A DNA stretch of 64,000 bases, from assembly GCF_019711595.1 (NCBI RefSeq), contig NZ_JAIGNR010000001.1:372001-436000 (forward strand), given 5' to 3'. Position 1 is the first letter of the stretch. Every line of letters begins with the position of its first letter. This DNA is from Qipengyuania sphaerica. GTDB lineage: Bacteria > Pseudomonadota > Alphaproteobacteria > Sphingomonadales > Sphingomonadaceae. Made by a program: the position numbers and the translations under genes. Below are positions 35,913-62,448 of the stretch, piece by piece. A model generated the notes under the pieces. The model worked only from the letters and a program-made list of their open reading frames with translations, made no database searches and had not been told where the DNA came from.

Positions 35913-36033
35913 GCTAGCACGATCCCACCCGGCCGTTGGTCGAGAATGGTTGCGCGGCGGTCGGAGGGGGCTTCCCTCTCCGGCAATTTGGCGTAGAGCC
36001 GCGCCAAAGTCCAAACCGGGGAAATTGCCGCAA

Positions 36034-37878
36034 ATGAATTTCGTTCGTATCGCGCTGACCGGCGCATCCGCCCTTTCGCTGGCCGCCTGTGCGACCACCG
36101 GCGGAATGGACGCTGCGTCGTCTGTAGCTGCCGAGGTGGAAGCGACTGCTGCGGCAATGGAAGCGGCGGCAGAGCACGAAGACCTTTTCGCCCTGTTTGC
36201 CGAGGCCGACGAGCGCAATCTCGAGCTCAATCCGATCAGCGCGCTGTTCCGCGGCGACATGCGGCGCCCCGACAAGATCGGCGACTACTACACCGATGCC
36301 TACAACGATGCGAGCCGGGCCGATGCCGAATTGAACCTGCGCAAGCTGGCCGAGATCGATCGCAGCGTGCTCTCGCCGACCGACCAGCTGGCGTATGACG
36401 TCTTCGAATATGACCAGACGCGTGCGGTAAGGAGCCTGGCCCCTGACATCCTCGCGCTCACCGAAGTACGACCGGTCAACCATTTCGCCGGCTACCACAC
36501 TTTCTATCCCAACTTCGCCAGCGGGCAGAGCGCGGCGCCTTTCGCCACGGTCGAGGACTACGAAAACAACCTCAAGCGCCACGCCGACTATATCGCGCTC
36601 AACGACCGGATGATCGCAAAGATGCGCGAGGGCATGGCGTCCGGCGTGCTCGAGACCAAGCTGACGATCGGCAATGTGATCACCCAGCTCGACACCCAGC
36701 TGGGCATGAAGGTGCACGAATCCCCGCTGTGGATGCCGATCACGAACTTCCCCGACAGCTTCTCGGCTGCGGAAAAGAAGCGTCTCCAGTTCGAATATCT
36801 CGAGTCCATCCTTGCGGTCTATGGAGCGCACGGACGGCTGCGCGATTTCCTGCGCGACGAATATTACGAAGTGGCGCGTGACAGCGTGGGCCTCGCCCAG
36901 ATGAAGGGCGGGCCTGCGCTTTACCAGCACCTGATCGAAGAAACGACGACGCTGCCGCTCACCGCGGATTATTTGCACGATCTCGGCCTTGCCGAAGTGA
37001 CGCGCATCAAGACGGGGATGGAAGAGATCAAGGACGAGGTCGGCTTCACCGGCACGCTCAACGAATTCTTCGATTACGTGCGGACCGATCCGCAGTTCAA
37101 GCACCCCAGCCGCCAGGCGCTGACGCAGCGGTTCTATGACATCGGGCACGAAGTCGATGCCATGATCGGCGACTATTTCTCGCTCGTTCCCAAGACCCCG
37201 CTCGTGATCAAGCCCTACGAGGAATATCGCGAGAAGTTCGAAGCGGGCGGTTCTTACGAGAGCGGTGCGCCCGACGGATCGCGGCCCGGCATCTTCTATT
37301 TCAACGCCTATGACCTGCCGAGCCGCCTGAAGACCGGCAATGTCACGCTCTACCTGCATGAAGGGTCGCCCGGACACCACTTCCAGATCAGTCTTGCGCG
37401 CGAGAACGAGGACCTGCCCAGCTTCATGCGCTTCGGCGGGACCACGGCCTATATCGAGGGCTGGGCGCTCTATGCCGAGACCCTCGGCTACGAAATGGGC
37501 TTCTACGACGATCCGTGGAACCGCTATGGGACGCTGCAGGACGAACAGTTGCGCGCCATGCGACTGGTGGTCGACACCGGTCTCCACTCCAAGGGCTGGA
37601 CGCGCGAGCAGGCGATCGACTTCATGTTGCAGAACAGCGGCATGACCGAAACCGAGGTAATCGCCGAAGTCGAGCGCTACATCGCCATTCCGAGCCAGGC
37701 GCTGGCCTACAAGGTCGGTGCGCTCAAGATACAGGAACTGCGCACCAAGGCGGAGGAACGGCTCGGCGAGAAGTTCGACATCCGCGATTTCCATGCGCAG
37801 GTTCTCGATACCGGGGCGCTGCCACTGCCTGTTCTGGAGACGAAGATCGATCGCTGGATCGCGCGCGGCGGCGGCTGA
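36034..37878 (+). CDS. DUF885-family zinc-peptidase-like lipoprotein
   Basis: 614 aa. Signal MNFVRIALTGASALSLAAC ends in lipobox LAAC. The catalytic-looking motif HEGSPGHH (His442, Glu443, His448) and EGWALYAE (Glu475) form a HExxxH-like zinc site found across the DUF885 family. Family blocks FFDYVRTDP, LPSRLKTGNVTLYL and IPSQALAYKVGALKIQELR are present. Members are assumed to be periplasmic metallopeptidases. An alanine/glutamate-rich stretch (residues 30-60) links anchor and domain. Tandem paralogue 50 nt downstream. Confidence 0.87.
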   Translation: MNFVRIALTGASALSLAACATTGGMDAASSVAAEVEATAAAMEAAAEHEDLFALFAEADERNLELNPISALFRGDMRRPDKIGDYYTDAYNDASRADAELNLRKLAEIDRSVLSPTDQLAYDVFEYDQTRAVRSLAPDILALTEVRPVNHFAGYHTFYPNFASGQSAAPFATVEDYENNLKRHADYIALNDRMIAKMREGMASGVLETKLTIGNVITQLDTQLGMKVHESPLWMPITNFPDSFSAAEKKRLQFEYLESILAVYGAHGRLRDFLRDEYYEVARDSVGLAQMKGGPALYQHLIEETTTLPLTADYLHDLGLAEVTRIKTGMEEIKDEVGFTGTLNEFFDYVRTDPQFKHPSRQALTQRFYDIGHEVDAMIGDYFSLVPKTPLVIKPYEEYREKFEAGGSYESGAPDGSRPGIFYFNAYDLPSRLKTGNVTLYLHEGSPGHHFQISLARENEDLPSFMRFGGTTAYIEGWALYAETLGYEMGFYDDPWNRYGTLQDEQLRAMRLVVDTGLHSKGWTREQAIDFMLQNSGMTETEVIAEVERYIAIPSQALAYKVGALKIQELRTKAEERLGEKFDIRDFHAQVLDTGALPLPVLETKIDRWIARGGG

Positions 37879-37928
37879 TTTTGCGCTTTGCCTGATAGGG
37901 GCTAGACTGGCGGCAAGGGAGGGTCGTC

Positions 37929-39812
37929 ATGGGAAATTCCCGAGTCTTTCGCGCTGTAATGGCATGCGGCACGGCGCTGGCGCTCGCATCTTGCGGCGGC
38001 GGTGACGGATCGAGCGGAGGGGGCACCGGGATTGCGCCGACCCCCACGCCATCATCGAACCCGTCTCCTGCGCCAACCCCCACGCCTACACCTGCGCCCC
38101 CGGTGGTCCTCTCCGCCCGGCTCACTGCCGTGTTTGATGCTGCGGAGGCAGGGTATGACGAGATGTTCCCCCTCAATGCGCAGTTACGCGGCAAGAGCGA
38201 ATATGCAGGCCGCTTCGGCGATTACCTTAGCGATGCCTGGTATGCCGAATTGCAGCGGCAGGCACAGGCCAATCTCGATGCGCTGGCGGGGATCGACCGC
38301 TCGAAACTGAACACCCCGAGCCAGATCGCCTACGACGCTTTCGCCTTCAAGGAACGCCAGACGCTGGCGCTGTTCGATCCGGCGGTCCTCCCCTTCGAAC
38401 GCGGGCTGCCGATGAACCATATCACGGGCATCCAGGCCTTCTATCCCAGCTATGCCAGCGGCGATGGCCCGATACCCTTCGAAACGCTCGAGGATTACGA
38501 GAACAACATCTCGCGTACGAAGGAATTTGCCGTAGCGCTCGATGCCACGGCAGACGCCTTTCGGCGCGGGGCAATCCTCGGCGTGGTGGAATCGCGCAAT
38601 ACGATCGACATCGTAATTTCGCAGCTGGGCGCGCTGGCGGACGATAGCGTGACCGGCTCGCCCTTTTACAAGCCAGTCACGAATTTTCCCGCTTCTATAT
38701 CTTCTGCCGACCAGTCGCGCCTCCAGACAGAATATGCCGACATGGTTACGAACGACGTGCTGCCCGCCATCCGCCGCCTGCGCAATTACCTTCAGAACGA
38801 ATACCGTCTCCAGGCACGCACGACACCGGGCCTTGCGGGGCTGGCAGGAGGGCAGGCCTATTACGATCACCTGATCGAGGCCAATACCTCGCTCGACCTG
38901 GCCGCACCCGCCATCCACCAGACCGGCAAAGACGAGGTGGCGAGAATCCTGGGCCGCATGGATGCCATCCGCCGCAGCCAGGGCTTTTCCGGAACGCTCG
39001 ACCAGTTCGACCAGAGCCTGCACCAGAACGCCGCCTATGGCGTCTCGTCGCGCGCGGCATACCAGCAGCTGTTCGAAGACATCGGCGACAGGGTGGTGCC
39101 CAAGGCTTACGGCCTGTTTCGCTACCAGCCGACCTCGCAGCTTTCGATCAAGCCCTACGATGCGGTGCAAGAGCAGTTCATGTTCGCCGCGTCTTACCTG
39201 CCGGGCACGGCCGACGGATCGCGTCCGGGCATCTTCCGCTACAATGCCTCCAGTTTCGGCGGCCACAAGCTCGCCTCCACCAGCCTGTTCATGCACGAGG
39301 GCGTGCCTGGTCACCACTTCCAGATCATGCTTGCACGTGAAAACGAGGGGCTGCCCGATTTCATGAACGGCACGGGCCTGATCGCCTATGTCGAGGGCTG
39401 GGCGCTCTATGCCGAAACGCTCGGTTACGACATGAAATTCTATGACGATGAACTTGTCGAATACGGCCACCTGACGCAAGAATTGCTGCGCGCTTTGCGG
39501 TTGGTCGTCGATACCGGCATTCACCATTTCGGCTGGAGCCGCCAACAGGCGCTGAACTATGTCGCCGCCAATTCGCCCTACAACAATGGCCTGCCGGGCG
39601 AGATCGATCGCTATATCGGCTGGCCGAGCCAGGCGCTCGGATACAAGATCGGCGAGTTGAAAATGCAGGAACTGCGCGCGGAAAGCGTTGCTGCGCTGGG
39701 CGACACGCGCGAGGTGCTCAAGGGCTTCCATCACCAGGTGCTGGGGACTGGGGTGATACCGCTGCCGGTGCTCGAAGCCAAGGTCGATGCATGGGTGGCT
39801 GCGGGAAGCTGA
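37929..39812 (+). CDS. DUF885-family zinc-peptidase-like lipoprotein, second copy
   Basis: 627 aa. Signal peptide ends ALALASC (lipobox). Residues ~25-57 are a Gly/Ser- then Pro/Thr-rich linker (PTPTPSSNPSPAPTPTPTP), a flexible tether. Zinc motif HEGVPGHH (His456) and EGWALYAE (Glu489) are kept. It shares order and blocks with the upstream gene, but differs enough to be an old duplication. AAGGGAGGG lies 7 nt before the ATG, so it has its own strong ribosome site within a likely two-gene operon. Confidence 0.87.
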   Translation: MGNSRVFRAVMACGTALALASCGGGDGSSGGGTGIAPTPTPSSNPSPAPTPTPTPAPPVVLSARLTAVFDAAEAGYDEMFPLNAQLRGKSEYAGRFGDYLSDAWYAELQRQAQANLDALAGIDRSKLNTPSQIAYDAFAFKERQTLALFDPAVLPFERGLPMNHITGIQAFYPSYASGDGPIPFETLEDYENNISRTKEFAVALDATADAFRRGAILGVVESRNTIDIVISQLGALADDSVTGSPFYKPVTNFPASISSADQSRLQTEYADMVTNDVLPAIRRLRNYLQNEYRLQARTTPGLAGLAGGQAYYDHLIEANTSLDLAAPAIHQTGKDEVARILGRMDAIRRSQGFSGTLDQFDQSLHQNAAYGVSSRAAYQQLFEDIGDRVVPKAYGLFRYQPTSQLSIKPYDAVQEQFMFAASYLPGTADGSRPGIFRYNASSFGGHKLASTSLFMHEGVPGHHFQIMLARENEGLPDFMNGTGLIAYVEGWALYAETLGYDMKFYDDELVEYGHLTQELLRALRLVVDTGIHHFGWSRQQALNYVAANSPYNNGLPGEIDRYIGWPSQALGYKIGELKMQELRAESVAALGDTREVLKGFHHQVLGTGVIPLPVLEAKVDAWVAAGS

Positions 39813-42269: not shown

Positions 42270-42806
42270 ATGGCACGCTGGTACATCATCCACGCCTATT
42301 CGGGTTTCGAGAACAAGGTCCGCGATTCGATCATCGCCGAGGCCGAACGCCTTGGCCTGTCCGAAGGCGTCGAAGAGGTCGAAGTCCCGACCGAGACGGT
42401 CACCGAAGTGAAGCGCGGCAAGAAGGTGCAGGTCGAACGCAAGTTCATGCCCGGCTACGTGCTGGCCAAGCTCAACATGACCGACGACGTCTACCACCTC
42501 GTCAAGAACACGCCCAAGGTCACCGGCTTCCTCGGCAACAATAACAAGCCGCAGCCGATCTCCGAAAAGGAAGCGGCGCGCTATTTCGGCGGCGTGGAAG
42601 AAGCCAAGTCCGCGCCCAAGAAGCAGGTCAGCGTCGATTACGAAATCGGCGACCAGGTCAAGGTGCTCGACGGCCCCTTCGCCAGCTTCAACGGCCTCGT
42701 CGAGGAACTCGATTTCGACAAGCAGAAGGTCAAGGTTTCGGTCTCGATCTTCGGCCGAGCAACGCCGGTCGAACTCGAATTCGAGCAGGTCGAACTGGTC
42801 AAGTAA
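42270..42806 (+). CDS. nusG: Transcription termination/antitermination protein NusG
   Basis: 178 aa. N-terminal NGN domain ARWYIIHAYSGFENKVRDSI, the loop KRGKKVQVERKFMPGYVLAKL, and TPKVTGFLG; C-terminal KOW domain VDYEIGDQVKVLDGPFASFNG to the end. It binds RNA polymerase and links it to Rho or ribosomes. In most bacteria rplK follows at once; here a terminator and three opposite-strand genes lie between. Confidence 0.97.
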   Translation: MARWYIIHAYSGFENKVRDSIIAEAERLGLSEGVEEVEVPTETVTEVKRGKKVQVERKFMPGYVLAKLNMTDDVYHLVKNTPKVTGFLGNNNKPQPISEKEAARYFGGVEEAKSAPKKQVSVDYEIGDQVKVLDGPFASFNGLVEELDFDKQKVKVSVSIFGRATPVELEFEQVELVK

Positions 42807-42829
42807 GACTGCAAAATCCGACATCGGCA

Positions 42830-42864
42830 GGGGCGCGGCTCGGGATGGAGCTGCGCCCCTTCTT
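42830..42864 (+). terminator. Intrinsic terminator after nusG
   Basis: GGGGCGCGGCTC (42830-42841) pairs with GAGCTGCGCCCC (42848-42859) with one G-U pair, loop GGGATG, then TTCTT. It cuts secE-nusG off from rplK. Confidence 0.8.
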
Positions 42865-42880
42865 GCGTCTGGCTTCCCGG

Positions 42881-44047
42881 TCAGTCGAGCCCGAATGTAT
42901 CGTCCAGGATGCGTGCGGCGAGCGCGTTTTCGTCGCTCTCGTCGCGCACGGCGAGGATCGCCGCCAGGGGGGCATGCAGGTGATAGAAAAAGCGGTCTTT
43001 CTCGAAGCGCCGGTCGGCCCTGCCTCGTAGGACGGTGGGCACGATTCTGGTCAACAGCTTGGTGCCAAACCCCTCTTTCTGGTCGACCGCGAAACTGAGC
43101 GGGGCCTTGCCGACGAGTTCCTCGTTCCAGACAAGGTCGAAATATTCGATCCCGTCGACCCCGGTCGCGGTGTGCCACGAAACTTCCAGCTTGGAATCGG
43201 TGTCGTCGAGCATCCCGTATTTCTGGGCGTTGGTCGCCAGTTCATGGATGGCGAGGCTGATCTGCTGGGCCGCTTCCGAACTGATCCTGAGGGAAGGTCC
43301 CGACACGGTTATGCGGTCTTGCACGGTGCTGGTCAGCGGGGTGAGCTGCTTGCGAATAATGGTTTCGATTTCCTGGGAAGTCGCATCGTCACCGCCAATG
43401 ACCGATGCGGTCGCCTCGTTCAGCGCACCGAGCCGGCCTATGAAGGTTTCGACGAACTCGTCGGGGTTCTTGGTAGCCCTGGCATTCTGCCGCGCCAGAG
43501 AGGTGACGACGCTCAGCAGGTTGCTGCTGCGATGGACCGCCTCGCGTGTCAGCACGGCAAGCCTGGCCGAGGCCTCGCTCAGCTCTGCAGTGCGCTCATC
43601 CACCTTTGCTTCCAGTGTTAGGAGCGTGGCCTGATGCGCCTCGATCTCTTCGCGCAGGCGAGTGTTGGTTTCTTCGAGCTGCGCCGGGGAGGGGAAGTCC
43701 ACCAGCGTCGGGATAAGGCGGAACAGCGTGACGGCAGTCACGGCCGAAACGATCCCGGTGGCCAGTTTCACGATGGCGACATAGGGATAGATCGGAACCC
43801 ACAGCGTCACGATCGACAGCAGGTGGGTCAGGCCGCACAGCAGGATGAACGAGGCGAACAGGATGACGATGCCTGAATGAGGCACGTCTTGACGCTGGCG
43901 AAGAACCGTCATCAATGCGATCGGGATGGCGGAATAGGAAAGGAAGATCAGCAGGTCCGACCCCGCCCAGAGCAGGACGAGCCATGGTTGCCACAAAAGG
44001 CACATGCCATGGGGCATATATTGCCAGAAGTCGCTGAACGGATCCAT
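42881..44047 (-). CDS. HWE-type sensor histidine kinase with ethylene-receptor-like (ETR1-type) membrane sensor
   Basis: 388 aa. Three N-terminal helices (about residues 20-110) closely follow the sensor of plant ETR1: SDLLIFLSYSAIP (ETR1 SDFFIAIAYFSIP), FASFILLCGLTHLL (FGAFIVLCGATHLI) and a third helix ending RLIP (HIIP). The ETR1 ligands map to Asp31, Cys71 and His75; Cys and His hold Cu(I) in the plant receptor. A coiled coil (~122-165) leads to the kinase: phosphoacceptor His172 in REAVHRSSNLLSVV, N-box AIHELATNAQKYGML and the VWNE element that fits the HWE subgroup. ATG 44047 is chosen because GGAGG lies 4 nt upstream. No response regulator is adjacent. Confidence 0.85.
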   Translation of the reverse strand: MDPFSDFWQYMPHGMCLLWQPWLVLLWAGSDLLIFLSYSAIPIALMTVLRQRQDVPHSGIVILFASFILLCGLTHLLSIVTLWVPIYPYVAIVKLATGIVSAVTAVTLFRLIPTLVDFPSPAQLEETNTRLREEIEAHQATLLTLEAKVDERTAELSEASARLAVLTREAVHRSSNLLSVVTSLARQNARATKNPDEFVETFIGRLGALNEATASVIGGDDATSQEIETIIRKQLTPLTSTVQDRITVSGPSLRISSEAAQQISLAIHELATNAQKYGMLDDTDSKLEVSWHTATGVDGIEYFDLVWNEELVGKAPLSFAVDQKEGFGTKLLTRIVPTVLRGRADRRFEKDRFFYHLHAPLAAILAVRDESDENALAARILDDTFGLD

Positions 44048-44139
44048 CATTCCTCCGATCCGCGCAATTTCAAGCACGGCATTGAATACAGGGTTCGCAC
44101 GGCCCTAAGCTTTCCTGAGAGGTAAGGCAAAAGGTCAAA

Positions 44140-44895
44140 TCATCCAGTGATTTGAACCGCACCGAGTTTGTCCGCATAGGCGAGGCTCATCATGATTACG
44201 TCAACCGCCATATGCGCGATGACGAGCGCCCAGAGATTGCCCTTGCGATTGTAGCGCAGCCAGCCCAGGCCGAGGCCCACCACGCCGGTTATGATAACCC
44301 CGCCGAGGCCTTGGTATGCATGAGGCAGGCCGAACAAAATCCCCTGGATCAGGATGATCAGCCAGGCCTTTCCGCCAAGGCCGGGGAGGCGTTCGAGCCG
44401 GTCCATCAGGAAGCCGCGCCAGAGCAGTTCTTCGCCGAGGCCGGCGGCGAAAAGCGCAACCAGCACGATCCACAGGATGAAGTGGAACTGGCTCTGCGTG
44501 ACCCAGCCCAGCACTTCGACCACGTCGGGTGTGTCGAGGCCGATCTGCTGTACCAGCATGGCGCCGAGCGTGAACCAGCCGATGATGGCGATGGTCGCAA
44601 GCGCTGCGACGCCGAGAGTTATCGGCCATCCGCCGGTTGGCGAGCGAAGGTTCCAGGCCTGTGCGACGGCATTGTCGCGGCGAAGCCAGAACCACGCCAT
44701 CAACAGCGCGCCCGCCATGCTGGAGGCGACCGATACGGCCGCACCGGTGGAACTGACAACCAGTTCGCCGGCGGCGTCGACTTCGCCCCAGATGATCGCG
44801 GCGGGGATGGAAGCGGCGAAATAGACCACGGCCACCGTCAGGAACTGGAGGATGAAGCGCCCCCAGCCAAGCTCGCGTGTCGTAACCTCGTTCAT
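44140..44895 (-). CDS. CPBP-family intramembrane metalloprotease
   Basis: 251 aa with about seven hydrophobic segments. The CPBP (CAAX/Rce1-like) motifs are GEELLWRGFLMDRL (EExxxR), FGLPHAYQG with a metal-ligand His, and AHMAVD near the end. Eukaryotic relatives cleave prenylated proteins; bacterial ones process small peptides or membrane proteins. Start ATG 44895 (MNEVTTRELGWG). It lies 92 nt upstream of the ETR1-like kinase gene and on the same strand, so the two may be co-transcribed. Confidence 0.9.
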   Translation of the reverse strand: MNEVTTRELGWGRFILQFLTVAVVYFAASIPAAIIWGEVDAAGELVVSSTGAAVSVASSMAGALLMAWFWLRRDNAVAQAWNLRSPTGGWPITLGVAALATIAIIGWFTLGAMLVQQIGLDTPDVVEVLGWVTQSQFHFILWIVLVALFAAGLGEELLWRGFLMDRLERLPGLGGKAWLIILIQGILFGLPHAYQGLGGVIITGVVGLGLGWLRYNRKGNLWALVIAHMAVDVIMMSLAYADKLGAVQITG

Positions 44896-44924
44896 TTCCG
44901 ATTCCCTGTCCTTTTCGCGCACAC

Positions 44925-44958
44925 CAAGAAGAAGGGCGGCACCTTGCGGCACCGCCCT
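44925..44958 (-). terminator. Possible terminator after the PspA-like gene
   Basis: Read on the minus strand: GGGCGG, a 12-nt loop, CCGCCC, then TTCTTCTT. It lies between the PspA-like and CPBP genes and may separate their transcripts. Confidence 0.5.
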
Positions 44959-44978
44959 AGCATTTCAGCAGCTTGCAA

Positions 44979-45677
44979 TCACGCAGCCTTGCCGCGTTTT
45001 CCGCCTTTCTTTGCGGGAGTCTTCTTGAAAGGAGTGCCGGTCCGCAATGCGGCAAGTTCTTCCTCGATTTGCCGCTCGCGGCGCATTTCCTCGATCTCGC
45101 GCTCGACCGATGCATTGCCTCGGCAATTCCCTCCGGTTTCGGTGGCGAAATCGGTGCGCTTTTCGAGCGTTTCGATGCGGTCCATCCGGCGTTCGGTGCG
45201 CTTGGCATAGCCGCTGTTGTCTCCGCCCGATCCGCTGGCGTAACCATCGGCGGCCTTCTGGTCGGCATGCCGCTGGCGGACATCTTCGCGCTTGGCCTCG
45301 AGTTCGCGCTCTGCTGCCTGCATTTCCGCGATATCGACATTGAGGCGTCCGATATCCTGCTTCAGCCGGGCGATCCCGCCGCGGCAGTCTTCGCGCGCGA
45401 TCAGCGCCTGGCGCGCCAGGTCCTCGCGATCGGCATCCATCGCGATTTTCGCCTTGTCCGACCAGTCCGCTTCGCGCAGTTCGGCCTGCGTGAGTTCGGT
45501 GTGCAGGCGTTCCTGCTGGCGGCGGGCCTTCGACAATTCGCCATGAAGACCGATCAGCGCTTCCTCGATCTCGCGCTGGAGGCGGGCGAGCAGCTTGGCA
45601 GGGTTCGAGGCGGCATCGAGTGCGCTCGACACATTGCTAGAAATCAGCTCCCTGGTCTGGATTGCGATACGAAACAT
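44979..45677 (-). CDS. PspA/IM30-family protein
   Basis: 232 aa, mainly long coiled coil (residues ~20-140), with the opening MFRIAIQTRELISSNVSSALDAASNPAKL (in two parts) as in PspA/Vipp1 proteins, which form rods or rings on stressed membranes. Typical arginine/glutamate-rich core (LARLQREIEEALIGLHGELS). The C-terminal ~70 residues have an SGSGGDNSGY linker and a very basic lysine end, unusual for classic PspA. Start ATG 45677 behind AAGGGGGACG. No pspBC or pspF gene is present. Confidence 0.82.
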   Translation of the reverse strand: MFRIAIQTRELISSNVSSALDAASNPAKLLARLQREIEEALIGLHGELSKARRQQERLHTELTQAELREADWSDKAKIAMDADREDLARQALIAREDCRGGIARLKQDIGRLNVDIAEMQAAERELEAKREDVRQRHADQKAADGYASGSGGDNSGYAKRTERRMDRIETLEKRTDFATETGGNCRGNASVEREIEEMRRERQIEEELAALRTGTPFKKTPAKKGGKRGKAA

Positions 45678-46072
45678 GAAAGCGTCCCCCTTGAAAGTCC
45701 CGTTGTCCCTAGCGGGCAAGTCTTAAGGCTTTGGAACCAGTGGGATAGGACAGATCGGACGAATTCCTTATCTGGCCACGGTTTCCTACCTCGTGACCCG
45801 CATTTGCTTTGCCGCCGTGTTGTCAGCCACGTCCACTCTTCAGGGAATTTCTCCCTTGGGCTGTGTTTCATCCGTTCCATCATGTTGGGAAGCTGCAGGG
45901 CCACTCCAACCGGCCACGAATGCTTGCATTTGCGCGCAGAATCGCTATGTGCGCGCCTTCCCAAGCGACAGTTAGGGATTCCACGCGGGAGGCTCGCCCC
46001 GGCAAGCCGCTCGACCGCTCAACATGAGGCTCTCTCGAAAGAGGCAGCCGACAGTGTGAAAGGAGGCCAGTG
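45678..46072. other. 395-nt intergenic region between pspA-like gene and rplK
   Basis: Divergent promoter region. No gene, tRNA or long repeat found. It holds the likely rplK promoter at 45924-45951 and a short CCCG...CGGG stem at 45702-45719. A ribosomal-protein leader structure could lie in the ~110 nt before rplK, but I see no recognised L11/L1 site. Confidence 0.5.
45924..45951 (+). promoter_or_regulatory. Likely rplK-rplA promoter
   Basis: TTGCAT (45924-45929) and TATGTG (45946-45951), 16 nt apart, about 120 nt before rplK. With nusG terminated 3 kb away, the ribosomal genes need their own promoter, and this is the best match in the gap. Confidence 0.45.
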
Positions 46073-46504
46073 ATGGCCAAGAAGATCGAAGGCTATATCA
46101 AGCTGCAGGTGCCCGCGGGCACTGCAAACCCGTCACCCCCGATCGGCCCGGCACTGGGTCAGCGCGGCGTGAACATCATGGAATTCTGCAAGGCGTTCAA
46201 CGCCGCCACGCAGGACCTCGAGAAGAACGCTCCGATCCCGACCGTTATCACGGTCTATGCCGATCGTTCGTTCAGCTTCGTCACCAAGACGCCGCCCGCA
46301 TCGTTCTACCTCAAGAAGGCTGCCAAGCTGAAGTCGGGCTCGAAGGAGCCGGGCAAGGTTTCGGCCGGGACCATCAAGCAGAGCCAGGTGAAGGAAATCG
46401 CCGAAGCCAAGATGGTCGACCTCAATGCGAACGATATCGACCAGGCCATGAAAATCATCGAAGGCAGCGCGCGTTCGATGGGCCTCGAAGTGGTGGAGGG
46501 CTAA
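46073..46504 (+). CDS. rplK: 50S ribosomal protein L11
   Basis: 143 aa. Start [42 protein letters not shown] (in parts) is the L11 N-terminal domain; C-terminal RNA-binding domain ends [10 protein letters not shown]-like (here [13 protein letters not shown]). Binds the GTPase centre of 23S rRNA. AGGAGG lies 6 nt before ATG 46073, better than the GTG three bases upstream. Confidence 0.97.
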
Positions 46505-54760: not shown

Positions 54761-56104
54761 CTAGGAAGCGCGGATCTGGAACAGGAATTCGTCGACCTTG
54801 TCGCGCAGCGTGCTTGCCTGCGTTTCGAGGTCGCTGGACGAGGCCAGAACCTGGCTTGCTGCAGCGCCGGCCGAGATGCTGGTATCCTTCATCGCGTCGA
54901 GATGGCTTGCCACCTCGTCGGTGCCCTGCGCGGCGCGGTCGATACTGCGCGCAAGGTCCTGTCCGGCTACCGACTGCTGGTCGACTGCACTGGCGATGGA
55001 GATCGCCGTCGTTTCCAGCTGCTTGATCTGCTCGCCGATCGAACGCAGCGCATTGACGCTGGCGCCGGTCGACGCCTGCATGGCCTGGATCTGCTCGGAT
55101 ACTTCTTCGGTCGCGCGGCTGGTCTGCGCGGCGAGTTCCTTCACCTCGCTGGCGACGACCGCGAATCCGCGACCTGCTTCGCCGCCGCGCGCGGCTTCGA
55201 TGCTCGCGTTGAGAGCGAGGAGATTGGTGCGCTGGGCGATCGACTGGATAAGCTCGACGATCTGGCCGACCTGTTCCGCCGAGTGAGCAAGCGCGCCGAT
55301 CGTCTCGTCCGCGCCTTCGGCATCGTCCGATGCCTTGCGCGCCAGTTCGGCCGAATTGGCGGCCTGGCGGCTGATCTCGCCGATCGACATGGCGAACTCG
55401 TCGGAGGCGGCAGCGGCTGCAGTGACGCCGCCCGATGCCTGTTCCATGGCGCCCGTGATCTGGCTTGCCTGGCCGGCGGCCTGTTCGGCTGCACCCGCCA
55501 TGGCGCTGGCGGTCGAGTTGAGCTGGCTGGAAGCTGCAGCAACGCCGCCAACCACATCGCCAACTGTCTTTTCGAAACTGTCGGCAAGCAGCATCAATTC
55601 CTGCTTCCGCTGCTCGGATGCGGCCTTGCGGCCGGCGAACAGCTCGTCGAGCTTGTGGCCCGAACGGGAGAAAACGGCGAGCGAACGGGAGAGGTCGCCG
55701 ATTTCATCGGGGCGGCTTGTGTCGCCCACCTGGATATCGCGAGCACCGCCAGCAAGCCGCGCCATTTCGACCGTGATCTGCTGGAAGGGAGCGATGACGT
55801 CGCGTAGGATGAAACGCAGGCTGAGGAGCGCTCCAACTGCCGAAACAGCGGCCAGCGCAATGATGAGCGCAGTCGCGGTAGAGGCGAAGGCGGGGTCGCC
55901 CAAGCCGGCCAGGGCAATCGCCGAAATGGCCAGCACGCCGCCAAGCGTGAAGATCGAGGCGATCTTGGCCTTGGCAGACATCGATTTCGCCATGAACCAG
56001 CCGTGCAGGCCGCCCGTGTGGCGGATTTCCTCGAGCAGCGGTCCCTCGACCTCGGCGATCTCGCGGCTCAGCTCTTCCTCGATGAAACCTACTTGCGCAT
56101 TCAC
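54761..56104 (-). CDS. Methyl-accepting chemotaxis protein without periplasmic sensor
   Basis: 447 aa, GTG start at 56104. About 50 cytoplasmic residues come first, then two membrane helices (~52-70 and ~75-97) with only a few residues between, so there is no periplasmic ligand domain. HAMP region (~98-150) and signalling domain: hairpin tip [17 protein letters not shown] then [19 protein letters not shown]. The C-terminal 240 residues are almost the same as in the next receptor. No CheR-docking pentapeptide. Last gene of the chemotaxis run, 53 nt behind the other receptor. It may sense cell-internal or membrane state. Confidence 0.93.
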
Positions 56105-56157
56105 GGCTCACATCCCTTCCCGATTTGCGCTTTTGCTAGCGCATAATGGTTACCAAT

Positions 56158-57936
56158 TTAGGCTTCGCGTACGTGCCGCAGGAAGTCGTCCACCTGCTGG
56201 CGAAGCACTCCGGCCTGCGATTCGAGCGAGGTAGCCGAACCCAGGACCTGGCTTGCCGCGGCACCGGTAGCGACGCTGGCCTCGCGTACCTGCGTGATGC
56301 TGCTGGAGACCTCGTCGGTCGAACGCGCGGCAAGGTCGATGCTGCGCGCAAGATCCTGGCCCGCGACCGACTGCTGGTCGACTGCACTGGCGATCGAGAT
56401 AGCCGTCGTTTCGAGTTGCTTGATCTGGTCGCCGATCGAACGCAGCGCGCTGACGCTGGCGCCGGTCGAGGCCTGCATGGCCTGGATCTGTTCGGCCACT
56501 TCCTCGGTGGCGCGGCTGGTTTGCGCTGCCAGTTCCTTCACTTCGCTTGCCACCACGGCAAACCCGCGGCCTGCCTCGCCGCCACGCGCCGCTTCGATGC
56601 TGGCGTTGAGGGCAAGAAGGTTGGTGCGCTGGGCAATCGACTGGATCAGTTCGACGATCTGGCCGACCTGCTCTGCCGAGGATGCAAGCGCACCGATGGT
56701 CGCATCGGCACCTTCGGCATCGTCCGAGGCCTTGCGCGCCAGTTCGGCGGAGTGCGAGGCCTGGCGGCTGATCTCGCCGATCGACATCGCGAACTCGTCC
56801 GAGGCGGCAGCTGCGGCGGTGACGCCGCCCGATGCCTGTTCCATCGAATGGGTGACGGATTCGCTCTGGTGCGTTGCCTGTTCGGCAGCGGCGGCCATTG
56901 CAGAGGCGGTCGAATTCAGCTGGCTGGACGCAGCCGCAACCCCGTTGACGACTTCGCCGACCGTGCTTTCGAACTGCAGAGCGAGACGCTGGAGATCCTG
57001 GCCGCGTTCGGCGCGCAGGGCTTCCTTCTCGGATGCCATCTTCTCGAAGCGGAAAGCGGCACGCAGGAATACATGAAGCGAACGGGCGAGGCCGCCCAGC
57101 TCGTCGCGGCGTTCGAGGCCGGGGATCTGGATCGACTTGTCGCCCGTAGCCAGCCGTTCCGCGCTATCGGTCAGCTGGCTGACCGTGCCCGAAATGTCGC
57201 GGGCGATAATGCGCGTCGACAGCACGATCAGCACGATGCCGGCGAGGGCGACCGTGAAGAACAGGACAAAGAGATAGACGATGTTTGTTTCGCCCGCCGA
57301 ATCGCTCGCCTGTCCCGTGCTCGACAGGGCTGCCTTGAGTTGCTTGGTGAGAGCGTTGAACTCGGCCCCTTCTTCAAGTGCGCCTTCGACCACACCTAGC
57401 CGGGTCGTCATGTCGCGCACCGATTTGAGCTGCTCGAGACGGCCGTTCAGCGTGTTGAGGCCTGCACGCAATTCGGTGATGGTGGCCGCCTGCTCCGGCA
57501 CCACTGCGACCACGTTACGCTCGATCGCGTTGAGATCGCGGCGGGCATCCTGCAGCGCACTGCGAGCGCCGTTCAGCGACTTGTTGTCGCCGTAAAGTGC
57601 ATAGCGCTGGATCTGCAGCTGGGCGGCGTCCGAACCGGCCGAAAGTTCGGTCGACAGCAGTACCATCTCCGATATCTGCATGCGCTCCTTGCGCAGTTCG
57701 ATGGCGAACCAGCCGCCGAGGACGATCGCCATCAGGATCGCCACGACTGCGCCGACGTTTGCGAAAGCGACAAGGCTCAGCTTGCCGCCGATCGACATGT
57801 CGGCAAACTTGCCGCGCAGGCCTTCGCTGCCCGCACCGATATCGGCGAGGATCGCGCGGTCTTCGGCGATCTCGTCGGAATAATACTTGCTGGTATCGAC
57901 TTCGGCGGCACCGAAATCGTGGCTCACTGCATTCAT
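56158..57936 (-). CDS. Methyl-accepting chemotaxis protein with periplasmic four-helix domain
   Basis: 592 aa. N-terminal cytoplasmic part (~1-55), first membrane helix [20 protein letters not shown], a ~150-residue helical periplasmic domain ([20 protein letters not shown] onward, 4HB-like), second helix [24 protein letters not shown], and a signalling domain with the same conserved tip as its neighbour. Start ATG 57936 overlaps the stop of the GGDEF/EAL gene (ATGA), so receptor and c-di-GMP enzyme are translationally coupled. Confidence 0.94.
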
Positions 57937-59474
57937 GCTACCTTGACCCCCCGGTCAGTGTTGGTGCCCCCGGCTTCGACGCCAGTGATCGTCTTTCCGA
58001 GGTGCTGCTTGATTTCGTCTGCGGGCATGGCCTTGAAGTAGAGCCAGCCCTGGATCTGGTCGCATCCGGCGGCGCGGACCATGTCGGCCTGTGCCTGCGT
58101 TTCGACGCCTTCGGCGGTAACCGCCATGTTCATCGCCTGCGCCATGGTGATGCTGGAAAGCATCATCGCGCGGCTCGATTCGTCCTCGCTCGCCTGGACC
58201 ACCAGGCTGCGGTCGATCTTCAGCTTCTCGAAGCGGAACTGGCGCAGGAAGCCGATCGAGGCATAGCCCGTGCCGAAATCGTCGAGCGCGACGCCGACGC
58301 CGAAGCCGCGGATGAGGTTGAGGCTGCGCTCGGCGACCACGGGGTCGAGCACAAGGCAGGTCTCGGTGATTTCCAGCTCTAGCCGTTCGGGATCGAAGCC
58401 GGTTTCCTCGAGGATGTGGCCGAGCTGGATCGGGAATTCGGGATTGCGCAGCTGCGCGGCCGAGATGTTGACCGACAGCGTCACGCCTTCCCACTCGAGA
58501 GCATCGACGCAAGCCTGGCGCAGGACCCACAGGCCGATCGGATTGATCAGGCCCGATTCCTCGGCGACCGGGATAAAGGTGTTGGGACCGACGGTCTTTC
58601 CGTCGGGACGCTCCCAGCGCATCAGGCTTTCGACCGCCACGATCCTGCGCGTGTTGGAATCGACCAGCGGCTGGTAATGCATGCGGAATTCGCCGAGGGT
58701 CAGCGCCTGGCGCAGGTCGTCGTCCAGTTGCTTGATCTGTTCGCGGCTGCGATCGAAGGCCTCGTTGAACCAGGTGCAGCGCATCTTGCCGCCGCGCTTC
58801 GAAGCATACATCGCCACATCGGCGCGGCGCAGCATTTCCGAAGAGCTGACGGTCTGGCCGGGCGCGTTGCGGGCAAGCCCGATGCTGGCACCGAGCGTCA
58901 GTCGCTTCTCGCCGATCTTCACCGACTTGGCGAGCCGTTCGATGATCCGGCGGCTGTGACCCTCGAGCAGCGTTCCGGCAAGATCGCCGTGCATCAGGAC
59001 AGCGAATTCGTCACCGCCGAGGCGATAGATATCGGCTTCCTCTCCGCAAATGTCGCGGATGATCTTTCCGATGGTCTTGATGGTCTCGTCGCCGACGAGG
59101 TGGCCGTAGTGGTCGTTGATGATCTTGAACCCGTCGAGATCGACGATCGCCAGCGCGACCTCGTGCTGGTCCGACATGTGCTCGGCAACATCGCGGTGCA
59201 GCGCGCGGCGGTTGGGCAAAAGGGTGAGGGCATCGCTGTTCGAAAGGCGTTCGAGTTTGCGCAGGTGCTTGAGGCCGAGGACCGCAAACCCGCCGATGCT
59301 GGCGAGGAAGGCGACAAGGCCGCCGCTCAGAACCGCTTCCATCGAAGTGACGCCGAAATGCGTGCCGAATACCGCCATCACTGCGGTAACGCCGACGATC
59401 CCAGCCAGCGAGGCCAGCGGCGCGAATATCATCACGCGCGTGCTTTGCTGTGCCATGTCGGTATGTGAACGCAC
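57933..59474 (-). CDS. GGDEF/EAL bifunctional c-di-GMP protein
   Basis: About 513 aa. Two N-terminal membrane helices ([20 protein letters not shown] and [21 protein letters not shown]), GGDEF domain with intact RLGGDEFAV (residues ~153-157) and EAL domain in which EAL itself reads ESL (AVESLMRW, ~282), while the metal and catalytic residues in [26 protein letters not shown] and TAEGVET are kept. Both synthesis and breakdown look possible. GTG 59474 is preferred, since AGGGGGA lies 6 nt upstream; ATG 59456 or 59528 are alternatives. The 138-nt gap to cheR holds a GGTAAA/TTTACC inverted repeat, so it may have its own promoter. Confidence 0.88.
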
Positions 59475-59612
59475 GCGATTCCCCCTGGGCTCAACCCAAC
59501 TTTCGTTATCGCCCTCGCTAACGCGCATTCGCTAATTAACGGTAAACCCCAAATTTACCTTGGTCAGCGGGCGTGGGAGCGCGATCCGCGTTTTCGCGCG
59601 GACCGGACGATG

Positions 59613-60488
59613 TCAGCCGTTGGCGACTTTCGGCAGTGAACCCGAAAGCACCGTACCGACCGAACTCGCGGCGGTTTTCGGCACGTAGATCGCAGAGCCG
59701 AACGGAGCGGGCTCGAACTTGTCGGTCTGGCCGACCACGGTCTCGCCCGCGCCCAGCATCAGGAAGCCGTCGGGTGCGATACCGCCGGAAAGCCGGTCGA
59801 AGGCGTTGCGACGCACTTCGGGATCGAAATAGAGCAGGCAGTTGCGGCACAGCACCAGGTCGAACCGCCCGGGCGAGGGCGGGTAATCGAGGATGTTGCG
59901 CTGTTCGAACTTCGTCATCGAAAGCACCTTGTCGGCGACTTTCCAGCCCTTTGGCGTCTCGGTGAAGAAGTTGAGCATCTGCGCCACCGAAATGCCGCGC
60001 TGGATTTCGAACTGCGAATAGGTGCCCGTCCTGGCCTGCTCGATCGCCTTGCCCGAAACATCGGTGCCGAGGATTTCGATCGTCCAGTCCTGCCACCTGC
60101 CCGGCTGTTCGCAGAAGGTCATCGCGAGGCTGAGAACTTCCTGCCCGGTCGAGCAACCAGCAGACCAAATCGAAATCTTGCGTGTATTGGCACGTTTCTT
60201 CGCCAGTTCCGGAAGGACCGTATTGGCGAGCGTTGCGAAATATGCGTGATCACGGAAGAAATAGGTTTCGTTATTCAGCAGCGCTTCCACCACGCGCGTG
60301 GCGAGGCGGTGTTCGCCCGGTCGCTCCAGCATGCAGGCGAGTTGGTCGACGTTCTCGATCCCGAATTCGCGGAACAGTCCCGAAAGCGCGGTCGAGATCC
60401 GCCAGCGACGGCTCTCGGTCAGCGTCTGACCGGTGCGCGCATTGAGGAGATCGGCAATGATCGTGTGGGAAGCGTCTTCTAGCGCCAT
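59613..60488 (-). CDS. cheR: Chemotaxis protein methyltransferase CheR
   Basis: 291 aa; methylates glutamates of chemoreceptors with S-adenosylmethionine. N-terminal helical domain, then SAM site ISIWSAGCSTGQEVLSLAM, EILGTDVSGKAIEQARTG, and RFDLVLCRNCLLYFDP; receptor-pentapeptide loop region absent or short. VEALLNNETYFFRDHAYF is the typical block before the catalytic domain. Start ATG 60488 overlaps the cheB end by 10 nt. Confidence 0.95.
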   Translation of the reverse strand: MALEDASHTIIADLLNARTGQTLTESRRWRISTALSGLFREFGIENVDQLACMLERPGEHRLATRVVEALLNNETYFFRDHAYFATLANTVLPELAKKRANTRKISIWSAGCSTGQEVLSLAMTFCEQPGRWQDWTIEILGTDVSGKAIEQARTGTYSQFEIQRGISVAQMLNFFTETPKGWKVADKVLSMTKFEQRNILDYPPSPGRFDLVLCRNCLLYFDPEVRRNAFDRLSGGIAPDGFLMLGAGETVVGQTDKFEPAPFGSAIYVPKTAASSVGTVLSGSLPKVANG

Positions 60489-61573
60489 GCATCGGCCCCC
60501 ACGGTCTTGAGGATCTTGTCGGCAAGTTCTGCCGGGGGGAGAACGGCGGATGCGAGCCCGCGTTCGGTGACGTCGCGCGGCATGCCCCAGACGGCGCATG
60601 TGTCGGCGCTCTGGGCGTACATCGAGCCGCCCGCATTGATGATCGCCTCGGCCCCTTCGCTCCCGTCGCGGCCCATGCCCGACAGGAGGATGCCCGCGAC
60701 CTTGCCGTCAAAGGCTTCGGCCAGCGTTTCGAACATCGGATCGACCGATGGCGTGCAGCCGCTCTTGACCGCGTGGAAGGCGAGATCGGTGACGAAGCGC
60801 GTGCCCTTCTGGCGCACGACCATATGTCCGTGGCCCGGCGCGATCACGATCGTCCCGCGCTGGATTTCGGTGCCTTCGCCCGCCAGCACGGCCTTGCGAC
60901 CGGCGGCCATTTCCATCTGCTTGGCGAAGACCGGGATAAAGCTGCCGGGAAGGTGCTGCGTGATCAGGATCGGCAGGTCGAATTCGCGCGGGATCTGGCG
61001 CAGGAACAGGTTCAGCGCGTGGATGCCCCCGGTCGATGCGCCGATGGCAAGGACCTGTGGTTTCTTGCCCGCACGACGTTCGCTCCACTTTGGGCGGACG
61101 GGCCTGGGCTGCTCGTAGGGCGCAAGGCCCTTGAGCGCGCGGATCTTGCCGAGCAGCTGGGTCCGGTAGTCCTCGTTGAACCCGCCCGGGCGCGGCTTGA
61201 GCATGGTGTCGGCCGCGCCCATCTGGAGCGCCTTCACCGTATGCTCTGCGCCTTCGGCCGTGAGCGAGGAGATCACCAGCACCTTGGTGCGCGGCGATGC
61301 CTTGAGGATCTTAGGAAGCGCCTCGATCCCGCCCATGCCGGGCATCTCGAGGTCGAGCAGGATCACGTCGACCCGGTGGCTGGAAAGCTCTTCGAGCCCG
61401 CGTTCGGCCGTGCTCGCGCTGGCGACGATCGTCATGTCGTTCTCGCGCTCGATCATGCGCGAGAAGACTGTCCGCACGGTCAGCGAATCGTCGACCAGCA
61501 TCACCCGCACGGTGGCAGGCGAGGGCGACACGCTGTGGGAGGCGGTCCTGGTTGATCGGAGCGCGGTCACCAC
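60479..61573 (-). CDS. cheB: Protein-glutamate methylesterase/response regulator CheB
   Basis: 364 aa. Receiver domain (VRVMLVDDSLTVRTVFSRM; phospho-Asp in DVILLDLEMPG), a linker of ~50 residues, and methylesterase domain with catalytic Ser in LAIGASTGGIHAL, His in ITQHLPGSF and Asp in LLSGMGRDGSEGA. It removes methyl groups when phosphorylated by CheA. It lies 18 nt behind the CheY gene. Confidence 0.95.
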   Translation of the reverse strand: MVTALRSTRTASHSVSPSPATVRVMLVDDSLTVRTVFSRMIERENDMTIVASASTAERGLEELSSHRVDVILLDLEMPGMGGIEALPKILKASPRTKVLVISSLTAEGAEHTVKALQMGAADTMLKPRPGGFNEDYRTQLLGKIRALKGLAPYEQPRPVRPKWSERRAGKKPQVLAIGASTGGIHALNLFLRQIPREFDLPILITQHLPGSFIPVFAKQMEMAAGRKAVLAGEGTEIQRGTIVIAPGHGHMVVRQKGTRFVTDLAFHAVKSGCTPSVDPMFETLAEAFDGKVAGILLSGMGRDGSEGAEAIINAGGSMYAQSADTCAVWGMPRDVTERGLASAVLPPAELADKILKTVGADAWR

Positions 61574-61591
61574 GGCTCGTATCCTTTCGGA

Positions 61592-61957
61592 TCAGGCCAT
61601 GCCGACGAGCTGGAGCTTGATCTGCAGGGTTTCGTGGTCGAACGGCTTCATGACGTATTCGTCGGCACCGGCGCTGATCGCCTCGCGGATGTGCGCGACG
61701 TCGTTCTCGGTGGTGCAGAACACGACCTTGGGCTTGTCGCCGCCTTCGTGCTTGCGCAGCTCGTGGATGAACTCGATGCCCGTCATGACCGGCATGTTCC
61801 AGTCGAGCAGCACCACTTCGGGCATGCTTTCGAGGCACTTGTTGAGGCCTTCCTGGCCGTTTTCGGCTTCGTCGACAGTGAAGCCGAGCGTTTCGAGGAT
61901 ATGGCGCGACACCTTCCGGATAACGCGCGAATCGTCGACGATGAGACAGGTTTTCAT
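61592..61957 (-). CDS. CheY-like response regulator
   Basis: 121-aa single receiver domain. DD in CLIVDDSRVIRKV, phospho-Asp in VVLLDWNMPVMTG, Thr in VFCTTENDV and Lys in YVMKPFD are in place. Start ATG 61957 (MKTCLIVDD) with GAAGGGA ~10 nt upstream; GTG 61975 would add six residues. It probably passes the CheA signal to the flagellar or other motor, although no motility genes are in the window. Confidence 0.93.
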   Translation of the reverse strand: MKTCLIVDDSRVIRKVSRHILETLGFTVDEAENGQEGLNKCLESMPEVVLLDWNMPVMTGIEFIHELRKHEGGDKPKVVFCTTENDVAHIREAISAGADEYVMKPFDHETLQIKLQLVGMA

Positions 61958-62013
61958 TTCGTGTGATCCCTTCACTTGCCCGGCCTTCCTAGCACCGAGC
62001 GGTAACCAATCGC

Positions 62014-62448
62014 TTAAGCTGCTTCGCGCAAGGGTCCGGAGACCAGCTGGTCGATATCGACCAGCAGGGTCGGACCTCCGTCCGTTTCCACCATGCCCTT
62101 CGAGGCGCGCTGCCAGCCTTCGCCGAAGCCGCCCGGCACGGCGACCGGATCGCTGTTTGCCTCGCCCACGTCATGCGCTTCGTCGACGAGCAGGGCGTAG
62201 AGATGACCTTCGATCTCGACGACAGCCGCACGGCGGTCGGCCGATTCGCACGCGGTATCGAGGCCCAGGGCGAGCGAGCAGTCGATGACCGTCAGCGCCT
62301 GGCTGCGCAGCGCGGTCAGGCCGAGGATGAAATCGGGCGTGCCGGGGATGGGGGTGATGTTTTCCACCTCGATCACCGACTGGACTTCGATCGCGGGGAT
62401 TGCCGCACGGCGGCCCGCGATGGTGCACATCAAAAGCAGTTCGTTCAT
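62014..62448 (-). CDS. cheW: Chemotaxis coupling protein CheW
   Basis: 144 aa with SH3-like fold: LMCTIAGRRAAIPAIEVQSVIEV, ITPIPGTPDFILGLTALRSQ and ALLVDEAHDVGEA. It bridges receptors and CheA. ATG 62448 overlaps the cheA stop (ATGA). A 56-nt gap with a GGTAACCAAT element separates it from cheY. Confidence 0.92.
   Translation of the reverse strand: MNELLLMCTIAGRRAAIPAIEVQSVIEVENITPIPGTPDFILGLTALRSQALTVIDCSLALGLDTACESADRRAAVVEIEGHLYALLVDEAHDVGEANSDPVAVPGGFGEGWQRASKGMVETDGGPTLLVDIDQLVSGPLREAA

Follow-up and report, generated by a model that had tools for sequence, protein, structure and literature searches.

The window, that is, the whole 64,000-nucleotide stretch of Qipengyuania sphaerica DNA analysed here, carries on its minus strand a gene that joins an ethylene-binding domain, a presumed coiled-coil linker, and a histidine kinase of the HWE type (Table 1). 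The open reading frame given in the initial annotation, 42881-44047 on that strand, is real. From the start at 44047 it encodes 388 amino acids, and an in-frame ATG one codon upstream (44050) would extend it to 389. A GGAGG sequence at 44056-44052 lies 4 nt before the first of these starts and 1 nt before the second, and because of this spacing 44047 is taken as the better start. Residue numbers in this text follow the 389-aa form and are reduced by one for the 44047 start; D32, C72, H76, and H173 are thus the Asp31, Cys71, His75, and His172 that had been placed, correctly, in the 388-aa form. The strings SDLLIFLSYSAIP, FILLCGLTHLL, and RLIP, which had been read as blocks shared with the plant ethylene receptor, are present in the translation. 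The host genome (2.84 Mb) contains a single ETR1_N match, which is this receptor, and nine HWE matches, this receptor included.

Table 1. Features of the receptor gene and its surroundings, in window coordinates
Feature	Position	Strand	Basis
nusG, frequent neighbour, outside the system	42270..42806	+	Neighbourhood comparison
Receptor gene (ethylene-binding domain, coiled coil, HWE histidine kinase)	42881..44047	-	ORF, Pfam, GGAGG
ATP-binding part: HELATN box (E270, N274), WNE (308-310), GFG (327-329)	42962..43294	-	Residue alignment
HWE_HK phosphoacceptor domain, residues 170-252, with H173	43295..43543	-	Pfam, conserved residues
Helical, presumably coiled-coil linker to the kinase	43535..43687	-	AF2 model, alignment of 41 relatives
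Predicted membrane helix 3, residues 88-118 (K95, S102, P114)	43697..43789	-	AF2 model
Ethylene-binding domain, Pfam ETR1_N PF25487, residues 24-117	43700..43981	-	Pfam; same place in whole-genome search
Predicted membrane helix 2, residues 59-82 (I69; presumed Cu(I) ligands C72, H76)	43805..43876	-	AF2 model
Predicted membrane helix 1, residues 22-52 (D32, Y39, I42, P43)	43895..43987	-	AF2 model
CPBP-type membrane protein gene	44140..44952	-	Neighbourhood comparison
PspA-like gene	44979..45719	-	Neighbourhood comparison
rplK, far edge of the interval holding the receptor	46070..46504	+	Neighbourhood comparison

The sensor is the N-terminal domain, which matches ETR1_N in a Pfam scan with an E-value of 5.2e-30 and 104 bits (cut-off 27), while none of 14 control genomes holds a match. 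The profile search, which could have placed the domain in another family, returned ETR1_N and no other N-terminal Pfam family at E ≤ 0.1, in agreement with the plant-ETR1-like sensor first proposed. A chance resemblance of a hydrophobic N-terminus is ruled out by the profile score together with the residue conservation. We infer from the AF2 model that the three helices ahead of the signalling part cross the membrane; the model was built as a monomer from 42 related sequences (mean pLDDT 86.1, pTM 0.58) and is silent on the dimer and on copper. All seven residues of the ethylene site (D32, Y39, I42, P43, I69, C72, and H76) are present in the receptor, Y39 being, as we assume, the counterpart of Y32, the seventh residue in ETR1. 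Alanine scanning of ETR1 is reported to have identified seven residues as necessary for ethylene binding (PMC11819568), and D25, I35, P36, I62, C65, and H69 are given as ETR1 binding residues (PMC12643061, PMC6586836). The residue spacing equals that of ETR1 (25-35-36 and 62-65-69), and S102 and P114 fit, with an identical separation of 12, S98 and P110 of ETR1, which are described as required for signal output (PMC6586836).

These residues are conserved well beyond the window. The seven binding residues, S102, P114, K95, and Cys17, which sits ahead of helix 1, are kept in 35/35 distinct kinase-intact HWE-type proteins, a set gathered by a motif that presupposes correctly spaced D, I, P, and H and that missed 13 loci; the conservation of Asp31, Cys71, and His75 among close homologues was checked in this set. 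A motif-free recount by match coordinates finds all seven residues in 110 of 123 distinct ethylene-domain rows (124 rows, leaving out the truncated L015 and the window copy L001; one genome may occur twice, with different segment ends), and the 13 failing rows are distant ones together with L193, the sole HWE-type failure there. Over 142 aa, the first 150 residues share 45.5% identity (E 4e-28) with a plasmid record of Azospirillum brasilense Sp7, in which the same seven letters occur (L156). By strain, domain order, and downstream regulator this locus fits AzoEtr1, the first 130 residues of which are reported to bind 14C-ethylene when expressed in yeast (PMC11819568). Very probably, the window protein is an ethylene receptor that depends on Cu(I); that it binds copper and ethylene appears highly likely, and ethylene is the best-supported choice of ligand. 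Two matches to the Cu-transporting ATPase family in the host genome lend weak support, since all 14 controls match too.

Behind the three N-terminal helices, the model shows a single helix, residues 122-192, that continues into the kinase. Among 41 aligned relatives, P114 and H173 are 59 residues apart in 30, 66 (+7) in 10, and 80 (+21) in one, and these steps of seven are whole heptads, as a continuous coiled coil would allow. Since two rows with a changed linker length, L011 and L004, belong to the genus of the window, the length has probably changed on three or more separate occasions. A GAF domain of the plant ETR1 type between sensor and kinase was considered and rejected, its place in the model being held by the single long helix; the Pfam scan of the receptor returned no GAF, PAS, or other extra sensor domain at E ≤ 0.1 and no receiver domain in the receptor itself.

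The kinase half matches HWE_HK in Pfam with an E-value of 4.2e-16, and its ATP-binding part gives a weak HATPase_c_2 match that is below its own cut-off (E 0.0019). The HWE hallmarks are H173, E270 in the HELATN box, where it replaces the first N-box Asn, and W308-N-E310; H173 and N274 are kept in 35/35 kinase-intact HWE-type rows. The best sequence match of the kinase half is 5epv, an HWE LOV-kinase of Brucella (E 1.7e-23), which is also the best fold match (E 2.9e-16) and is followed by EL346 (4r39, E 6e-8); none of the best 50 of 366 fold matches is named as an ethylene-receptor membrane domain. Pfam, sequence, and fold matches agree on the HWE-type kinase (His172) that had been recognised earlier, and histidine kinase activity appears highly likely. 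The usual H-box motif of HWE kinases is HRxKN. The receptor reads HRSSN, with Ser replacing a Lys that is missing in most relatives too and that L177 does carry; with this replacement, the choice of partner may differ from that of known PhyR kinases.

The gene occupies part of the interval between nusG and rplK (window 42807-46069), which across the genus holds the receptor, CPBP, PspA, a 350-aa protein family, or others, in varying sets. The PspA and CPBP neighbours are as the initial annotation gave them, both on the minus strand and on the side opposite nusG (+); the names nusG, CPBP-type, and PspA-like rest on recognition and not on a family search. That the receptor works as a unit with the CPBP and PspA genes was considered and rejected: no more than 4 of 22 relatives' loci (L089, L091, L092, and L096) have both beside it, and the content of the interval varies much. 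The receptor stands by nusG and/or rplK in 13 of these 22 loci and elsewhere in nine. A shared-neighbour search for a conserved neighbour that would name a partner yielded, within the genus, the nusG-rplK region, besides a few genes common to L098, L100, and L102, and in seven loci from Rhodobacterales and related marine families nothing is common to three or more but the receptor and overlapping frames.

The stretches upstream of rplK were compared in 38 of the 45 receptor-negative genus genomes and in two genomes that carry the gene elsewhere, 40 stretches in which nusG was not reached in L131 and L147. One of the 38 receptor-negative stretches (genome G018) retains a C-terminal stub of the receptor (L139 666-959); the remaining stretches, searched with the receptor, showed no match or, in L142, L143, and L147, weak kinase-only matches, those in L142 and L143 being PAS-HWE kinases. 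At the same place in genome G032 (L096 2714-3601), helices 1 and 2 are missing, helix 3, the linker, and the kinase are kept, and the kinase frame is open. The stub and this reduced copy together imply in-place reduction at least twice.

The sensor is less rare than was first held. Within the genus, which counts Qipengyuania citrea, Q. xiapuensis, Q. intermedia, Q. polymorpha, and Erythrobacter vulgaris among its members, 15 of 60 genomes match at E ≤ 0.001, 14 of them above the cut-off; since the gene was not found in the other 45, the receptor is dispensable. Matches occur in 30 of 298 genomes and 19 of 91 genera of the same family group and in 32 of 387 genomes and 27 of 264 genera of the same class. 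The carriers include Blastomonas, Alteripontixanthobacter, Pseudopontixanthobacter, Novosphingobium marinum, Oceaniradius, Loktanella, Cognatishimia, Leisingera, Jannaschia, Notoacmeibacter, and Kandeliimicrobium. One HWE-type receptor (L155 2113-3258) lies on pBSY18_2 of Blastomonas sp. RAC04, with a site-specific integrase on one side and two short response regulators on the other; the strain is an algal phycosphere isolate and the plasmid a mobilizable one. A contig scan combined with the relatives' alignment yielded 50 named loci, 34 of them HWE-type and five of these with degenerate kinases, by patterns (MPHGMCLL and W[QE]PWL[VL]xLW) that favour the HWE clade and say little on the frequency of other receptors.

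In a tree built from 97 ethylene domains, the HWE-type rows (41) are monophyletic (SH-aLRT 98), with a single change for kinase type; this tree was made by a quick method from 130 columns, leaves 43 of 94 inner branches open, contains one very long row (L204), and leaves out loci that missed the motif, except L193. Its topology fits one joining of the sensor with an HWE kinase, followed by spread. Kinase classes were assigned by simple motifs, by which six rows classed as 'HisKA_2/HWE' fall outside the HWE-type clade and 17 rows were unclassified; six of the latter were then read by eye and 11 stayed so.

Plant subfamily-2 ethylene receptors have degenerate kinases, and a possible bacterial parallel to these kinase-dead plant receptors is found in one branch of the HWE-type clade. 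This branch (SH-aLRT 100) consists of L043, L184, L185, L186 (Erythrobacter sp. NAP1), L187, and L193. The Asn of HELATN has become Arg in all six rows, and the phosphoacceptor His is Gln in four, Ser in one, and still His in one (L187). The whole ethylene site is nevertheless kept in five of the six, L193 having lost Tyr39 and Cys72. With synonymous sites near saturation, pN/pS in the first five rows is 0.14-0.28 over the ethylene domain and 0.25-0.56 over the kinase part, no higher than in six intact genus members (0.16-0.31 and 0.25-0.71, respectively). The rows look like maintained pseudokinases, not pseudogenes. All six lie in one gene neighbourhood, beside genes that we take, by recognition, to be accB- and accC-like. 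The kinase-dead copies are positioned at about 5.9-7.2 kb in L184-L187 and L193 and at 6198-7418 in L104.

No response regulator is found among the genes adjoining the window receptor. A receiver is near or fused at 5 of 35 HWE-type loci versus 16 of 22 loci of other ethylene receptors (Fisher p 1.3e-5, with loci counted as independent of kinship), as detected up to 6 kb on each side by a profile that was built from the host genome's own regulators and that finds one of two annotated Blastomonas regulators, so that its sensitivity is incomplete. The 35 loci are L155, L158-L190, and L193, with short flanks in L155, L162, L167, L171, L178, and L183; the 22 others include L111-L114, hand-picked from the family search, L157, which is cut, and L192, the receivers of which lie more than 1 kb from the receptor. 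The receivers of the other ethylene receptors are mostly fused or directly downstream, and those at HWE-type loci belong to a neighbouring hybrid kinase (L173, L180, L181, and L183) or to neighbouring regulators (L155). Another 22 loci (L083-L104), many of which share these genomes, add one more receiver, at L100, from the same genome as L173. HWE-type ethylene receptors are mostly orphans. In L180 (3336-5615), L181 (3329-5581), and L183 (3198-5621) the hybrid kinase has the layout DUF4118-PAS-PAS-HWE-receiver and is divergent from the receptor, of which it is a possible partner. Related single-domain response regulators lie directly downstream of sphingomonad receptors at L111 (7546-7926), L112 (5031-5453), and L204/L205 (about 7.5-7.9 kb), and the receptors of L111, L112, and L205 have a HisKA_2-like kinase by motif.

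A network that could receive the signal is encoded in the host genome. At locus L105 on contig C5, PhyR, a CHASE-HWE kinase, NepR, and an adjacent sigma factor lie side by side; profile searches give PhyR_sigma2 at E 6.4e-23, with a receiver, and NepR at E 6.8e-16, and the sigma-70 r2/r4 protein (E 1.7e-15 and 8e-15) is assigned as EcfG by position. The general stress response of alphaproteobacteria is described as receiving its main inputs from HWE/HisKA2 kinases (PMC12148442, PMC6599016), and the HWE LOV-kinase 5epv is reported to pass phosphate to PhyR (PMC4438053). Because of these inputs, the 5epv precedent, and the host PhyR-NepR-EcfG locus, the general stress response is the likeliest target of the receptor kinase, an assignment by analogy that we hold tentatively, with a little less than even confidence.

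The locus as a whole is explained, with moderate confidence, as a membrane-bound ethylene receptor with an HWE output into the general stress response. The three helices, as a dimer, would coordinate Cu(I) by C72 and H76, close to D32, and ethylene would bind this copper. From helix 3 the signal would travel along an uninterrupted coiled coil into the HWE kinase, altering the autophosphorylation of H173. The kinase has no response regulator of its own and would probably pass its phosphoryl group to the shared stress network, reaching PhyR directly or via a single-domain regulator, and this network would then release EcfG. In plants, Synechocystis, and Azospirillum, receptor loss is reported to mimic ethylene, and ethylene is therefore thought to switch the receptor off (PMC11819568). 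Since this is so in ETR1, SynEtr1, and AzoEtr1, ethylene is assumed to be inhibitory here as well and probably turns the kinase down, which we regard as fairly probable on this analogy. This marine-type bacterium may use ethylene gas as a cue.

The receptor could instead be wired to a private or plasmid-type response regulator acting on biofilm, motility, or c-di-GMP, as in Synechocystis and Azospirillum, an alternative that is possible yet on the unlikely side. The bacterial receptors treated in PMC11819568 act on biofilm, and SynEtr1 on phototaxis also; the Blastomonas RAC04 plasmid copy is flanked by two regulators, and the host genome encodes at least seven short stand-alone receiver proteins from which such a partner could come. 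Across the HWE-type loci, however, a stand-alone regulator gene is near just 1 of 35 (at the incomplete sensitivity of the profile), and one of the two Blastomonas regulators matches the host receivers at 25-33%, while the other has no match at E 0.01. That the fold serves instead as a copper(I) sensor, or as a sensor of another small ligand such as propylene, isoprene, CO, or a lipid cue, is improbable: the fold has a Cu(I) site, and the dynamics of ETR1 are reported to change with copper loading alone (PMC12643061), but the ethylene residues beyond the copper ligands (Y39, I42, P43, and I69) are kept in 35/35 rows, and the 45.5%-identical domain is reported to bind ethylene (PMC11819568). 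That the ethylene domain is a relic, in the course of being lost and of little function today, is very improbable: the patchy presence in 15 of 60 genus genomes and the reduced copies in G032 (L096) and G018 (L139) might suggest it, but all binding and kinase residues checked are intact in the window copy and the ethylene-domain pN/pS among the six genus members stays at 0.16-0.31.

The ethylene receptor with a stress-response output, which remains the preferred reading, can be set beside several known systems. AzoEtr1 of A. brasilense is alike in its N-terminal ethylene domain, the same binding residues, and a histidine kinase output, but has a PAS domain, a response regulator that overlaps its stop codon (PMC11819568), and a HisKA-like kinase by motif, whereas the window receptor combines an HWE kinase with the lack of both a PAS domain and a nearby regulator. 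The sensor family, the D/C/H site, and its spacing are shared with SynEtr1 of Synechocystis (PMC6682694, PMC11819568) and with plant ETR1; unlike these, the window receptor shows no GAF or receiver domain in the Pfam scan, and its kinase is of another family. The HWE LOV-histidine kinase (5epv, 6ph4) and EL346 of Erythrobacter litoralis (4r39) are alike in the kinase half but are blue-light sensors with LOV domains, in contrast to the membrane ethylene domain found here. The Paks of Sphingomonas melonis Fr1 belong to a comparable sphingomonad network, in which several kinases that activate the general stress response feed into PhyR-NepR-EcfG, and in the available part of the source none is named as an ethylene receptor (PMC6599016).

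Bacterial ethylene receptors are known, and they are predicted in many proteobacteria (PMC11819568). Earlier published hit lists may well include the present HWE-type proteins; among the matches listed from open-licence PMC literature, no HWE-type, Erythrobacter, or pseudokinase ethylene receptor is described. The less expected part of the receptor is its output, an orphan HWE kinase. It is a speculative and rather doubtful proposition that marine and aquatic alphaproteobacteria have a receptor class of their own, in which an orphan HWE kinase feeds the general stress response and the NAP1 branch signals as a pseudokinase. In seawater and at algal surfaces, algae are described as one source of ethylene and the action of light on dissolved organic matter as another (PMC4036023). 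If the proposed reading is true, ethylene from algae or sunlit organic matter would inform the cell about its surroundings, and to the receptors known in plants, cyanobacteria, and Azospirillum would be added a compact stress-kinase version that lets seawater or algal-surface bacteria read ethylene directly. The short layout also makes the receptor convenient for studying how kinase output is raised or lowered by a Cu(I)/ethylene site.

Two further groups of genes were observed in the window. On the minus strand at 54761-63998, about 10.7 kb from the receptor, lie CheA-, CheW-, CheY-, CheB-, and CheR-like genes (by eye; the receivers by profile), together with three membrane proteins of the methyl-accepting type (by eye). 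On the plus strand at 35950-39812, two adjacent paralogous proteins of 642 and 627 aa are encoded, with about 40-60% identity to each other's relatives.
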